This document shows, piece by piece, positions 25,938-29,400 of a DNA stretch of 32,913 bases. Source of the stretch: Yinghuangia soli (lineage in GTDB: Bacteria > Actinomycetota > Actinomycetes > Streptomycetales > Streptomycetaceae); assembly GCF_021502675.1 (NCBI RefSeq), contig NZ_JAKFHA010000001.1, positions 212,455 to 245,367 of the forward strand, read 5' to 3'. Numbering within the stretch: position 1 is the first letter of the stretch; every line of letters starts with the position of its first letter. The notes under the pieces were generated by a model. That model did not search any database. It was given only the letters and a program-made list of their open reading frames with translations, and was not told the origin of the DNA. Both the position numbers and the translations under genes were made by a program.

Positions 25938-25969
25938 GGAGGCCGCAGTCCATGACTGCGGCCTCCTTT
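25938..25969 (+). terminator. 13-bp perfect hairpin terminator with short T tract
   Basis: GGAGGCCGCAGTC, a CAT loop and GACTGCGGCCTCC form a perfect 13-bp stem followed by TTT, 38 bp after the PuuD-like stop. This is the clearest intrinsic terminator of the window and separates the catabolic operon from the sigma/protease cassette. The remaining bases to 26085 presumably carry the sigma-factor promoter; I see no definite -35/-10 pair. Confidence 0.85.
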
Positions 25970-26085
25970 GCGAGCCTTCACACACGAGTCGCCGCTACGA
26001 CTAAACCTCATCGGGCAGTGCTTCGTCTTGATAGGCAGAAGGTCCGTGACGACCGGACGCGGCGACCAGCCAGGACAGGCAGGCC

Positions 26086-26616
26086 ATGGGGGATATGAGG
26101 CGGGCTCTGCACGAGCTGGTTACGGTCCGTGGGGCCGCGCTCAAGCGGAGCGCTTTCCTGTTGCGTGGGGACAACCACGGAGCTGACGACCTCCTACAGG
26201 AGGCCCTGGCTCGCACGCTGGCGCGCAGGGCAACGCACGATTTGCAGCAGTTGGAAGCGTACGTGCGCCGAACCATGGTCAACCTGGAGATCGACCGGGG
26301 ACGGCGGCGGACTCGCTGGCGCTCGACCGAACTGCAACTCTCCGGACACATAGTGACCGTCGACAAGGACCGCGCCGACGAGGTGTGCGATCGCCTGTCC
26401 CTGCGGGACGCCCTCGCGGTACTCCCCGCCCGACAACGCGCGTGCGTCGTCCTGCACTACTACGAGGATCTGCCCGTCGCCGAGATCGCCGAGATGCTCG
26501 ACTGCCGTCCCGGCACTGTCAAGGCCCATCTGCACGACGCGCGCAAGACCCTGCGCCGGCACTGGTCCGACACACCACTCGCGCTGAGCCACACGGCCAA
26601 GGAGGAAGAATCGTGA
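26086..26616 (+). CDS. SigE-family ECF RNA polymerase sigma factor
   Basis: A 176-residue ECF sigma factor. Region 2 spans about residues 12-80 (LKRSAFLLRGDNHGADDLLQEALARTLARR.. LEAYVRRTMVNLEIDRGRRRTRWR) and region 4 about 104-160 (ALAVLPARQRACVVLHYYEDLPVAEIAEMLDCRPGTVKAHLHDARKTLRR). The pattern is that of the actinobacterial SigE-family group (TIGR02983), usually paired with a downstream single-pass membrane protein. ATG 26086 is chosen; ATG 26095 is also possible. The stop overlaps the next gene (GTGATG), so the two are coupled. Its target promoters are unknown; the downstream protease operon is the obvious candidate. Codon use is less GC-biased than in the flanking loci. Confidence 0.88.
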   Translation: MGDMRRALHELVTVRGAALKRSAFLLRGDNHGADDLLQEALARTLARRATHDLQQLEAYVRRTMVNLEIDRGRRRTRWRSTELQLSGHIVTVDKDRADEVCDRLSLRDALAVLPARQRACVVLHYYEDLPVAEIAEMLDCRPGTVKAHLHDARKTLRRHWSDTPLALSHTAKEEES

Positions 26617-27371
26617 TGGACTTGGGCAAGAGCAACCTCTCGGAGGCGCTGGCCAGGGAGGCCGACCAGGCCGACAGCCCTCTCGAGACAATCGATTACG
26701 ACCGTGTCCTGGCACGTACAGCCACCCTTCGCCGACGCCGCCGATCCGGAATCGCTGTGACCAGCTCGCTGCTGGCGACAGCCGTCATTTCAGGCGCCGT
26801 ACTGGCAACCTCCATGTTCCGCTCCGACAGCGCTCCCCAGGCTGCCGCGGGCGCGGCGTCAACCCCAGGGGCTACTCCGTCCGCGCCGCTACCGACGCAG
26901 TCGACCTTGGACGACGAGATCCGAATTCTCAGACCGCTTCGGGATGCCGCGGATACCGCCGCCAAGGTGGGCGAAGGCTCCCTGGGCGGCATCTACACCA
27001 ACGTCCGCATCGTCGCCGAGTCTGGAACCGTCACCGTCTACCTGACCGACCTCAGCCGCCAAGGCGACTTTCGGGACGCCATGGCGAAGCATTCCCCCGC
27101 CCTCGACCTGTCCGTAGTGAGCTTCCAGCAGGGAATGGCGACCCGAGCACAGTGCACATCCGCGAAGCAGCAGATCGGTATCATCATCGGCACGCGGGCT
27201 CTGGTGACCTCCGCCAGCGACTGCTCTTACATCCAGGTCACGGTCCCCGACCCTGCCGCGGTGCAAGCCCGGCTCGATGACCCGAGCAGCAAGGCCTCCG
27301 GTACAGGGATTCCTGTACGAGTCGTCCAGGGCAATCCCCCCGCTTTCGCACCCGGCACAATAACGGATTGA
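26616..27371 (+). CDS. Single-pass membrane protein, putative anti-sigma factor with protease-propeptide-like ectodomain
   Basis: A 251-residue protein. Residues 1-44 are cytoplasmic with a strongly basic stretch (TLRRRRRS) before a transmembrane segment at ~45-66 (GIAVTSSLLATAVISGAVLATSMF). A Pro/Ser/Ala-rich linker (~70-97) leads to an extracytoplasmic domain, ~98-251. There is no zinc-finger anti-sigma motif; the anti-sigma role is inferred from coupling to the sigma gene and from topology. The ectodomain matches the protease region at 27500-28804: both have DE..ILRPLRD.AD, then Y..VR, VYLT and a later ..V.DP.AV. Two cysteines (180, 203) could form a disulfide. GGAGG seven bases before GTG 26613 and ten before ATG 26616 supports either start. 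Confidence 0.7.
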   Translation: MDLGKSNLSEALAREADQADSPLETIDYDRVLARTATLRRRRRSGIAVTSSLLATAVISGAVLATSMFRSDSAPQAAAGAASTPGATPSAPLPTQSTLDDEIRILRPLRDAADTAAKVGEGSLGGIYTNVRIVAESGTVTVYLTDLSRQGDFRDAMAKHSPALDLSVVSFQQGMATRAQCTSAKQQIGIIIGTRALVTSASDCSYIQVTVPDPAAVQARLDDPSSKASGTGIPVRVVQGNPPAFAPGTITD

Positions 27372-27381
27372 TCGCCCGAGG

Positions 27382-27496
27382 TCCCCCAAATTCGACATTG
27401 CACTTTGATCGGTCTGCCAATTGCTTGAGCAAGGCACTCCCATTAAGGTCAGAACGCGCCCGACGGGATCGTTGGCGCAATGTCTAATTTGGGGGA
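27382..27496 (+). promoter_or_regulatory. Long-range inverted repeat that can mask the protease ribosome-binding site
   Basis: Positions 27382-27401 and 27477-27496 (GCAATGTCTAATTTGGGGGA) pair over 20 bp with a single mismatch. The right arm contains the GGGGGA ribosome-binding site, and the ATG follows after three bases. The 75-bp loop has its own small hairpin (TTGCT..AGCAA near 27421-27432). If transcribed as one RNA the left arm would cover the ribosome-binding site. Alternatively the arms are two inverted copies of a protein-binding site, or a mobile-element scar. The promoter of the protease operon must lie within or before this region. Confidence 0.5.
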
Positions 27497-27499
27497 TTC

Positions 27500-28804
27500 A
27501 TGCGCAAGCCAAGAAAGTCATGGTCTGTCGCCGCGGTAGGTGGACTGGTTTCGGCCTGCCTTATCGGAACAGTGACCCCTTCGTCGCAGGCCGCCGAAGG
27601 CGAACCGCAGACAGTACAGGAGTTCACCGCACTCTCCCGTGATGAGCAGCTCGCCATACTTCGCCCCCTGCGCGATTTCGCTGATGCCGTGGACAAGACG
27701 GCACGAGAGCACGCCGCCGACGTGTATTCAGGAGTTCGACTGGATCCGCTGGCACGCCGCGTGGATGTCTATCTGACGCAGCGCGACCGCTCGGACGAGA
27801 TCCTCGCCGCCGCCAAGAAGAACCATCCCGGAATCGACATCAGCGTCGCCCGGGTGAACGCGTCGAAATACACGCGCCTGGACCTTGCGGAGGCGCGCAA
27901 GCGTCTGACCATGGGACTACGCGAAAACCCCGGCCTGCCCTATAGGATCGTCTCCATTGCCGTGCCTTCTGACGGCCACGGCCTCAAGGTGGGTGTCACC
28001 GACCCTTCGGCCGTCCCATCGGGCGAAGGGTCGGTCGCGGCGCGAGGAGCATCCGACATTCCGGACCCGGCCGCCTTGGCAGGCGTGGATACCACGATAT
28101 CCAAGCAGGCTCCCATGCACCCCTCAAATCGCCGTATGAATGACCTTGATCCCTACACCGGCGGCGCTCGCATAGTCAACCCGGCCGCACAGGCCGAATG
28201 CTCCGCCGGTTTTCCCGTCAGGTTTTCGGATGGGAACCCTGGGATGGTGACCGCCAATCATTGCGTCACGCCCGGAAATAATGCCGACCAGATCAATCGG
28301 CCGGACGGGGGGAAACTCGGCGTAATCTCCGATCGCGAGCCGTACTACGACGCTGCGGTCTACCGCACCAACGCCCCGGTTGCACCCTATCTCTACTATG
28401 GCGCCTGGAACTCCGACCAAAAAGGGCTGATCATATCCACCGGCGGTACCCAAGACGGTGACTACGTCTGCAACGGCGGTTCGGTGATCGGCCAAAAATG
28501 CGGGATCCGCGTGGACGACGCCGACTCCTATCTGGTCGACGATTGGGGCAACGTCTGGGCGGCGGGGGTGTCGGCATCCCAGGCCAATAACGCCGCTGCC
28601 GGCATAAGCGGCGACAGCGGTGGACCCGTGTATGAATACCTCGGAACTGACTCCGGTGGAATGCCTCTTGTGCAGGTCCGTGGAATAGTCAACGCGATCG
28701 CCAATAACGGACCTGGAACTCCCGACGTGCACCTGTTCTTCGCCAGGGCCTATGACATCCTGAACCGCTTCGAGGCAGACACGGTCCAGGGGCAGCCATC
28801 ATGA
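27500..28804 (+). CDS. Secreted trypsin-like (S1) serine protease with N-terminal propeptide domain
   Basis: A 434-residue exported protease. The signal peptide is residues 1-~32 (RKPRKSW, then AAVGGLVSACLIGTV.. SSQAA). Residues ~38-200 form a propeptide-like domain (DEQLAILRPLRDFADAV.. VYSGVRLDPLARRVDVYLTQ). The S1 catalytic domain follows from ~225, with His254 (TANHC), Asp284 (YYDAAVY) and Ser373 (GDSGGP) all present, and likely disulfides Cys234-Cys255 and Cys324-Cys334. The layout resembles alpha-lytic/streptogrisin-type proteases, whose prosegment assists folding, though this prosegment is distinctive and resembles the ectodomain of the neighbouring membrane protein. A GGGGGA site precedes the ATG closely. 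It overlaps the next gene by 4 bp (ATGA). Codon use is less GC-rich than in the flanking loci. Confidence 0.88.
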   Translation: MRKPRKSWSVAAVGGLVSACLIGTVTPSSQAAEGEPQTVQEFTALSRDEQLAILRPLRDFADAVDKTAREHAADVYSGVRLDPLARRVDVYLTQRDRSDEILAAAKKNHPGIDISVARVNASKYTRLDLAEARKRLTMGLRENPGLPYRIVSIAVPSDGHGLKVGVTDPSAVPSGEGSVAARGASDIPDPAALAGVDTTISKQAPMHPSNRRMNDLDPYTGGARIVNPAAQAECSAGFPVRFSDGNPGMVTANHCVTPGNNADQINRPDGGKLGVISDREPYYDAAVYRTNAPVAPYLYYGAWNSDQKGLIISTGGTQDGDYVCNGGSVIGQKCGIRVDDADSYLVDDWGNVWAAGVSASQANNAAAGISGDSGGPVYEYLGTDSGGMPLVQVRGIVNAIANNGPGTPDVHLFFARAYDILNRFEADTVQGQPS

Positions 28805-29400
28805 CTGAAATTTCATCGCAGTCCCGGTTTGCAAGGCCAGACATCTCCCCTATGTTTCGGGCGAACAGATCGATCAGGGTGAGACCGGCCGACGACGCCG
28901 ATATCCCCTTCCTATGGGCTCTGTTCGCAACCGACGAAGTCTCCTACCGTTGGGTCTACCGCGGACGCATACCGACCCCCGAATCGATACGAATGAACCT
29001 GCAAAGGCCCGACGTCCTCGGCCACATCATCGAGGACACCAGAGGCCAAAAGCAGTTGGGATACGTCGGAGCCTTCGACGTCAACGACCGAAATGGGCAC
29101 GCACAACTGGGAACAGTTGTCGGCCCGGATCAGCAGCAGACTGGCGTCGGCGTGACGGCGACCATGCTGTTCGCCGACTACCTATTCACGATCCTGCCAC
29201 TGCGAAAGTTGTACTTGCAGTCGCTCGACTACAACTACGCGCAGTTCAGCAGCCTTGTGTCCCGCGGCTACGCAAGCGTCGAGGGCGTTCTTCGCGAGCA
29301 TGAATTCTTTGCCGGCCGGTACTGGGACATCCATGTCCTGTCCGTGACCCGGGAACAGTTCAAACTCGCGAGCGAGCGGATGCGCCTCAGAGAGCGCTGA
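28801..29400 (+). CDS. GNAT family acetyltransferase
   Basis: A 199-residue RimJ/RimL-like N-acetyltransferase. The core begins at about residue 25 (SIRVRPADDADIPFLWALFATDE). Acetyl-CoA binding is expected in LGTVVGPDQQQTGVGVTATMLFADYLF, and the C-terminal part is KLYLQSLDYNYAQFSSLVSRGYASVEGVLREHEFFAGRYWDIHVLSVTREQF. The start overlaps the protease stop as ATGA, so synthesis is tied to the protease. The acceptor is unknown; because the protease is secreted and this enzyme has no signal peptide, it probably acts on something inside the cell made for, or in response to, the same programme. It is the last gene of the cassette. Confidence 0.85.
   Translation: MTEISSQSRFARPDISPMFRANRSIRVRPADDADIPFLWALFATDEVSYRWVYRGRIPTPESIRMNLQRPDVLGHIIEDTRGQKQLGYVGAFDVNDRNGHAQLGTVVGPDQQQTGVGVTATMLFADYLFTILPLRKLYLQSLDYNYAQFSSLVSRGYASVEGVLREHEFFAGRYWDIHVLSVTREQFKLASERMRLRER

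Follow-up and report, generated by a model that had tools for sequence, protein, structure and literature searches.

Within a 32,913-nucleotide stretch of the Yinghuangia soli genome (hereafter the window), we analysed a locus in which four genes follow one another on the forward strand, encoding a SigE-like sigma factor of the extracytoplasmic function (ECF) type, a membrane protein (P0001), a secreted S1-type serine protease (P0002) and a GNAT acetyltransferase (Table 1). The central observation concerns the second and third of these genes, as sequence comparisons give good support to homology between the ectodomain encoded by the former and the prosegment encoded by the latter.

Both sigma regions 2 and 4 were recognised in the sigma factor by Pfam (Sigma70_r2 at E = 3.2e-5 and 24.1 bits, cut-off 24; Sigma70_r4_2 at E = 6.1e-19 and 67.8 bits, cut-off 25.7), and the start codon of P0001 overlaps the stop codon of the sigma gene (TGATG). 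This layout resembles that of the TIGR02983 (SigE-fam_strep) sigma factors of actinobacteria, in which the sigma gene is likewise followed by an overlapping membrane protein gene, though the window sigma factor scores 131.7 bits, slightly below the family cut-off of 141.55, and P0001, its ectodomain included, matches no family significantly in Pfam or NCBIfam. P0001 is Arg-rich and carries one hydrophobic segment (mean hydropathy 1.99 over 19 residues) directly preceded by RRRRR (residues 39-43), from which we predict a short N-terminus inside the cell and a single transmembrane segment; three other proteins encoded after sigma genes, at loci L015, L016 and L085, share this architecture. Judging from its sequence, P0001 probably restrains the SigE-like sigma factor and is thus a putative anti-sigma factor.

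P0002 is an alpha-lytic/streptogrisin-type S1 protease, as indicated by its triad and fold. Its residues H254, D284 and S373, which we take to be the S1 catalytic triad, are invariant in all 14 aligned proteases, and the protein gave profile matches to 2oua (1.2e-7) and 2sfa (2.2e-5). In a Foldseek search with the P0002 model, the catalytic half had 1p09 (alpha-lytic protease, E = 1.2e-4) and 2sfa as top matches, together with other bacterial S1 enzymes. P0002 fell below the cut-offs of the Pfam families Trypsin and Trypsin_2 (15.3 bits for the latter, against 27.6).

An earlier note on this DNA had proposed that the membrane protein and the protease share a domain, and this was confirmed. Both open reading frames are present, and the motifs it listed occur in the same order in the two proteins (DDEIRILRPLRDAAD in P0001 and DEQLAILRPLRDFAD in P0002), as do the further pairs YTNVR and YSGVR, VTVYLT and VDVYLT, and VPDPAAV and VTDPSAV. 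BLASTP aligned P0001 with P0002 at E = 3e-13, with 29% of residues identical across 188 columns, membrane and signal stretches among them, and a local alignment of the two domains with short flanks scored 148, compared with a mean of 34 for shuffled sequences (standard deviation 6.0, maximum 61, n = 300). When a profile of the three sigma-linked proteins of the window genome was compared by hhalign with a profile of its four prosegment proteases, E was 2.6e-18 over 129 columns, and P0001, used as a query against the whole genome, retrieved three other prosegment proteases at E-values of 1.2e-9, 3.2e-7 and 4.5e-6.

The same note took the N-terminal region of the protease to be a prosegment, and this finds support in fold matches to the alpha-lytic pro region (2PRO, 3PRO, 4PRO; PF02983), albeit from low-confidence models and at E-values of 0.015-0.6. 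AlphaFold models were built from alignments of seven (ectodomain) and five (protease) sequences. The ectodomain model had a mean predicted local distance difference test score (pLDDT) of 59.5, with residues about 21-100 at 69-89 in blocks of ten, and the protease model a mean of 49.8. Seven of the top ten Protein Data Bank (PDB) matches of the ectodomain were alpha-lytic pro-region chains (probability 0.80-0.96, non-significant E of 0.16-0.60, root-mean-square deviation 2.2-3.5 over 68-71 columns), the first match being a designed protein (probability 0.21). The prosegment of the P0002 model aligned to 2pro, 3pro and 4pro over 160-176 columns, with template modelling scores by target of 0.49-0.67 and E-values of 0.015-0.036, at ranks 19-28, behind plant NAL1 and two ribosomal chains; its 3' boundary is inferred from the conserved R212. 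In these low-confidence models the family resembles the alpha-lytic pro region in predicted fold and, in P0002, in lying N-terminal to an alpha-lytic/streptogrisin-like catalytic domain. It differs in lacking a significant sequence-profile match to it, and the P0001 copy differs further in being tethered to the membrane as an ectodomain that has a pair of cysteines and lacks a catalytic domain. On sequence grounds, membership of PF02983 was rejected, the Pfam matches (two of 46 family members, best E 0.023) and hhalign matches being insufficient; when the family profiles were searched against PDB sequences, nothing below E 0.03 matched the domain, and a PF02983 search of the window genome, which found no match, was uninformative, as control genomes were equally without one.

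The domain occurs in three kinds of host, namely S1 proteases, in which it forms the prosegment, standalone copies, which are mostly lipoproteins (many with a lipobox recognised by eye or by pattern), and membrane partners encoded directly 3' of SigE-like sigma genes. Besides P0001, the window genome encodes another two sigma-linked proteins (C37; loci L015 and L016), both of which begin where a SigE-like sigma gene ends, and P0002 is joined there by three more proteases that carry this prosegment (C4, C78 and C45; loci L017-L019). In profile searches the domain was detected in at least 41 of the 297 genomes searched within the same family, where 12 candidates were scored for each genome, in 26 of 293 genomes of the order and in 14 of 393 of the class, and a deeper search found it in 23 of 61 relatives. 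When contigs were searched with the sigma-linked ectodomains, 134 pattern matches arose, none of which was confirmed.

Sigma-linked copies were found at 23 loci, four in the window genus (the window, L015, L016 and L085) and 19 in Kitasatospora (L116 and, of the 28 further loci fetched, 18 that fall within L270-L295), where sigma genes were recognised by a custom hidden Markov model (HMM) that included the L116 sigma factor. In the Kitasatospora pairs of sigma factor and membrane partner, the ectodomain is mostly a trimmed form of the domain, often set after a long Ser/Pro-rich stalk. The tree placed the sigma-linked copies of the window genus inside a protease-rich clade and the 19 Kitasatospora copies beside a lipoprotein clade. 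Forcing all 23 into a single clade cost 56.6 log-likelihood units and was rejected by the approximately unbiased test (p = 0.009, on a quick tree built with no bootstrap and with some long branches), and therefore the sigma-partner ectodomain arose at least twice. We also considered a recent local copy of the P0002 prosegment as the source of the window ectodomain and rejected it, as the latter groups with the genus's other sigma-linked proteins.

Cysteine content differs between the hosts. Cysteine is absent from 43 of 44 prosegments and present in all 23 sigma-linked domains and in 44 of 63 standalone ones. Within the window genome, Cys180 and Cys203 of P0001 form a pair that is invariant in the three sigma-linked proteins (alignments A1 and A5), and Cys203 is the probable disulfide partner of Cys180. 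The cysteines may reflect disulfide stabilisation, with the pairing inferred, of copies that must persist, as opposed to disposable prosegments.

The hosts also differ in the tail that follows the last conserved strand position of the domain (positions being extrapolated from the end of the HMM match). Of 43 proteases examined, 29 showed the junction motif, and in 23 of these 13 residues lie between this position and the conserved Arg of the pro/mature junction; standalone copies end a median of 13 residues past it (64 rows, two of them protease-like). The chain ends 14-16 residues past it in the sigma-linked proteins of the window genome, 28 in L085, 12 in L116 and 11 in L271, and at most 2 residues past it in 13 of the 19 Kitasatospora ectodomains, with four more at 6-8. 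The window-type ectodomain therefore roughly matches a whole prosegment in length, and the majority Kitasatospora type is trimmed.

Free copies of the domain recur next to proteases, as 11 of the 63 standalone rows adjoin an S1 protease gene with a gap of at most 168 bp (Table 1); for the other 52, the whole of the fetched stretch contains no S1-motif reading frame. These 11 cases are not independent, since L181, L182 and L175 share one family code and L174 and L179 another. The protease neighbouring L174 carries a canonical PF02983 prosegment (E = 1.2e-11), and that neighbouring L179 aligns to it with 65% identity in the prosegment. From their sequences, these standalone copies are candidate surface-bound inhibitors of alpha-lytic-like proteases. 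The recurrent adjacency, together with the two or more sigma-linked origins, indirectly supports a functional link between free domain copies and S1 proteases.

Table 1. Features of the window locus and of related loci.
Feature	Locus	Coordinates	Strand	Basis
SigE-like ECF-type sigma factor gene, 176 aa	window	26086..26616	+	Pfam, TIGR02983
P0001, putative membrane anti-sigma factor, 251 aa	window	26616..27371	+	open reading frame and overlap read from sequence
Predicted transmembrane segment, about residues 44-66 of P0001	window	26745..26813	+	hydropathy; limits by eye
Prosegment-like ectodomain, P0001 residues 97-251	window	26904..27368	+	homology, fold model
Cys180 of P0001	window	27153..27155	+	alignments A1/A5, cysteine census
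Cys203 of P0001	window	27222..27224	+	alignments A1/A5
Left arm, 20-bp inverted repeat	window	27382..27401	+	between P0001 and P0002 genes
Right arm, 20-bp inverted repeat	window	27477..27496	+	ends in GGGGGA (27491-27496)
P0002, secreted S1-type serine protease, prepro form, 434 aa	window	27500..28804	+	open reading frame, profile and fold matches
P0002 prosegment, about residues 33-211, ectodomain homologue	window	27596..28132	+	homology, fold model
Catalytic His254 (TANHC)	window	28259..28261	+	invariant in aligned proteases
Catalytic Asp284 (YYDAAV)	window	28349..28351	+	invariant in aligned proteases
Catalytic Ser373 (GDSGGP)	window	28616..28618	+	invariant in aligned proteases
GNAT acetyltransferase gene	window	28801..29400	+	Pfam Acetyltransf_3, 9.9e-8
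Standalone copy beside S1 protease	L174	5362-6042		
Standalone copy beside S1 protease	L179	4194-4679		
Standalone copy beside S1 protease	L083	7302-7961		
Standalone copy beside S1 protease	L119	6561-7940		
Standalone copy beside S1 protease	L077 (same as L124, 9217-9834)	8308-8925		
Standalone copy beside S1 protease	L175	5866-6528		
Standalone copy beside S1 protease	L181	2612-3517		
Standalone copy beside S1 protease	L182	6155-7555		
Standalone copy beside S1 protease	L239	4966-5766		
Standalone copy beside S1 protease	L290	4900-5487		
Standalone copy beside S1 protease	L293	4920-5501		
Prosegment protease at most 1 kb from SigE-like sigma gene	L080	6664-9257		
Prosegment protease at most 1 kb from SigE-like sigma gene	L081	6627-9454		
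Prosegment protease at most 1 kb from SigE-like sigma gene	L018	4837-8426		

The tree set comprised 44 protease, 63 standalone and 23 sigma-linked rows after L184, L195 and L076 had been relabelled from standalone to protease. L092, a protease-like reading frame with no triad motifs, was kept among the standalone rows, and L196 was counted there as a lipoprotein-like protein, though a sigma gene lies 664 bp away. L084 (the front part of a protease, with an in-frame stop), L276 (at the end of a contig) and L278 (with its frame broken) were removed, L197 (a 69-residue match) and the second copies L077, L082, L086 and L088 were not included, and L287, L296 and L297 had no domain match; L292, a partial domain scoring 22 bits, stayed outside the tree and inside the co-occurrence set described below. 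The L084 gene (6621-7997), from a genome of the window genus (G001), is a protease gene of the domain family with an in-frame TAG inside its prosegment, and represents a pseudogene or a sequencing error.

Tentatively, and with confidence just short of even, we propose that P0001 is an anti-sigma factor whose ectodomain mimics a prosegment and docks, and so senses, a mature alpha-lytic-like protease. The ectodomain would be a diverged version of the prosegment by which these proteases are folded and blocked, and mature P0002, or one of the three related proteases that the genome encodes, would dock on the tethered mimic as it does on its own pro region. Docking or cleavage would then open the anti-sigma factor to regulated proteolysis, or change its state, and free the sigma factor, while the ectodomain would both sense active protease and, by inhibiting it locally, shield the membrane. 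The protease gene may itself be a target of the sigma factor, in which case the circuit would feed back on protease expression. The cysteines of the sigma-linked copies, and their lack in prosegments, are as this proposal would have them, because a persistent form is expected to need them. Also in its favour are the homology and fold matches, the S1 proteases adjoining free copies, the two or more sigma-linked origins, and the tails of the window genome's sigma-linked proteins and of L116, which are close in length to the stretch that precedes the junction Arg in most proteases scored. From the sequence it is plausible that this ECF-type anti-sigma factor has an ectodomain pointing to its own ligand, and the ectodomain would name the class of that ligand, a protease, because it is kin to the ligand's prosegment.

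This proposal draws on the alpha-lytic pro region, which inhibits the mature protease tightly and whose tail leads into the active site. We know of no link between propeptide-like inhibitors and sigma factors. According to the portion of the source available, the alpha-lytic pro/mature junction lies across the active site, and folding is about 10^9-fold faster with the pro region (PMC2829044). Free copies of prosegments that act on mature enzymes appear, in the excerpts at hand, among subtilisins (the Plasmodium SUB1 propeptide-like protein, PMC6993865) and cathepsins (the I29-type cathepsin L propeptide-like protein, PMC6010012), which differ from the present case in belonging to other protease classes. 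A functional analogy, and only that, may be drawn with sigma-V/RsiV of B. subtilis, in which, as far as the available part of the source goes, a membrane anti-sigma factor occludes and reports an enzyme through its ectodomain, RsiV binding the lysozyme active site, inhibiting lysozyme and then becoming sensitive to site-1 cleavage (PMC5014341). The ligand of RsiV is lysozyme, whereas the P0001 ectodomain is kin to the prosegment of its own proposed ligand, and P0001 matched no RsiV-type family in Pfam or NCBIfam (RsiV itself not being directly compared). Among the matches listed from the open-licence PMC literature, in the parts available, there was no anti-sigma factor with a prosegment-like ectodomain.

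Several results weigh against protease sensing by P0001. No anti-sigma domain family was recognised in it by Pfam or NCBIfam, and in the tree the P0002 prosegment is not the nearest relative of the window ectodomain. The fold models are of low overall confidence, only the first half of the ectodomain being confident, and in both fold searches unrelated proteins (designed, plant protease, ribosomal) equal or beat the pro region by E-value. An hhalign comparison of A9 with two canonical-type prosegments was non-significant (probability 1.5%, E = 0.034) and gave no profile link to PF02983, its score of 18.4 exceeding those of all 40 column shuffles (maximum 13.6), with the helix-hairpin element aligned. 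Most Kitasatospora ectodomains lack much of the tail that leads, in alpha-lytic protease, into the active site, and no promoter pattern AAC-N15-18-CGT was found before the protease gene. The earlier note had suggested searching genomes for the sigma gene, the ectodomain and the protease together; SigE-linked ectodomains do recur, and yet all three genes stand together at the window alone, one of the 23 sigma-linked loci, with no protease in the stretches fetched for L015 and L016, and a general three-gene cassette is therefore not supported. Three prosegment proteases lie near SigE-like sigma genes elsewhere (Table 1), the genes converging at L080 and L081, and at all three the sigma gene's membrane partner lacks the domain above threshold, which hints at a wider tie between proteases and sigma factors and dilutes the specific one.

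The co-occurrence across genomes that the same note had proposed to test came out positive in Kitasatospora, at a strength that is weak to moderate (p of 0.008 to 0.06, depending on the choice of cases) and likewise tells against the proposal. We compared 70 genomes, scoring 26 candidates in each and counting as full a protease whose match ran from profile position 76 or before to 377 or beyond, as read by eye; p values carry no kinship correction. Of the 20 sigma-linked genomes, 11 had a full prosegment protease, as did 14 of the 50 others (p = 0.05), and the counts became 13 of 22 and 12 of 48 when two incomplete sigma-linked cases were added (p = 0.008). Counting the borderline genome G085 changed these values to p = 0.06 or 0.016, and omitting L292 gave p = 0.026. 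Nine of the 20 sigma-linked genomes had no full prosegment protease at the depth searched, and among relatives the base rate already stands at 16 of 50 genomes (one an interrupted gene). In G027, G140 and the incomplete case G115, the sigma-linked gene and the protease lie far apart on one contig, and therefore any link in Kitasatospora would act in trans.

The first of the competing explanations, which we consider rather unlikely, holds that the ectodomain descends from the prosegment family and now senses another cue, such as cell-wall state, a peptide or a small ligand, with no protease docking. It is favoured by the 22 of 23 sigma-linked loci with no adjacent prosegment protease in the fetched stretches, by the shortened C-terminal tail of 17 of the 19 Kitasatospora ectodomains (at most 8 residues), by the nine Kitasatospora genomes just mentioned and by a divergence that leaves only 26-32% identity among the sigma-linked copies of the window genus, and it sits poorly with at least two origins from one prosegment/inhibitor family, with the protease adjacency in the window and with a co-occurrence that is positive though weak. 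Distinctly less probable is that the membrane protein serves chiefly to inhibit or fold secreted proteases from its tether, conferring immunity, with sigma control coupled to this only secondarily; it would be consumed by protease attack at the cell surface so that the sigma factor launches envelope protection and not protease synthesis: the overlap of its start codon with the sigma stop in the window, L015 and L016 argues for signalling as the primary role, even if the standalone, mostly lipoprotein copies beside S1 proteases resemble surface-bound inhibitors, tethered copies carry cysteines and RsiV, in the part of the source available, does both for lysozyme (PMC5014341). Neutral capture of the domain from a protease gene, the window gene order being chance with no functional link, would agree with the three genes meeting at one locus only and is very improbable given a recognisable domain and cysteines kept at 23 sigma-linked loci, at least two origins and a tree showing no recent local copy.

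The sequence around the proposed circuit includes possible regulatory elements. Between the P0001 and P0002 genes lies a 20-bp inverted repeat whose arms are 95% complementary, with 75 nt between them, and stand 95 bp apart (about nine helical turns). The arms are each other's sole matches in the genome at up to two mismatches, and no longer repeat occurs in the 63 regions that precede the domain in protease and sigma-linked genes. GGGGGA, in which the right arm ends, is likely, from its sequence, the ribosome-binding site of the protease gene, and it is paired in the RNA fold of 27366-27530 (-64.6 kcal/mol, z -4.3). The repeat may thus lock the protease start in transcripts reading through from the sigma operon, or its arms may be paired operators; a further possibility is an insertion of unknown kind, and Rfam left the hairpin unmatched up to E 5. 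Upstream of the sigma gene, a pattern search for a shared ECF promoter found AAC-N17-CGTC at 26004-26027, likely a chance match with a pattern so short. Also 5' of the sigma gene, a hairpin (GGAGGCCGCAGT...ACTGCGGCCTCC, 25938-25966), absent from the terminator scan listing, is perhaps the terminator of the upstream gene. At the other end of the locus, the acetyltransferase gene overlaps the protease stop codon by four bases (ATGA).

In its broadest form, which is possible and somewhat more doubtful than protease sensing by P0001 itself, the proposal is that at least two actinobacterial lineages independently made a secreted protease's own folding inhibitor into the sensor of an anti-sigma factor, the cell gauging how much mature protease is at its surface through docking on a tethered prosegment copy, with the lipoprotein copies serving as general surface inhibitors, and that the window joins the parts in one closed locus, in which the protease ribosome-binding site lies in an RNA hairpin or is flanked by paired operators. 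If true, this would be a case in which the sequence of an ECF sigma system lets its signal be guessed, and it would suggest how protease-secreting actinobacteria would measure and tolerate their own secreted proteases. It also points to an unannotated domain family, spread over proteases, lipoproteins and sigma partners, and the free members of that family are candidates for inhibiting alpha-lytic-like proteases.

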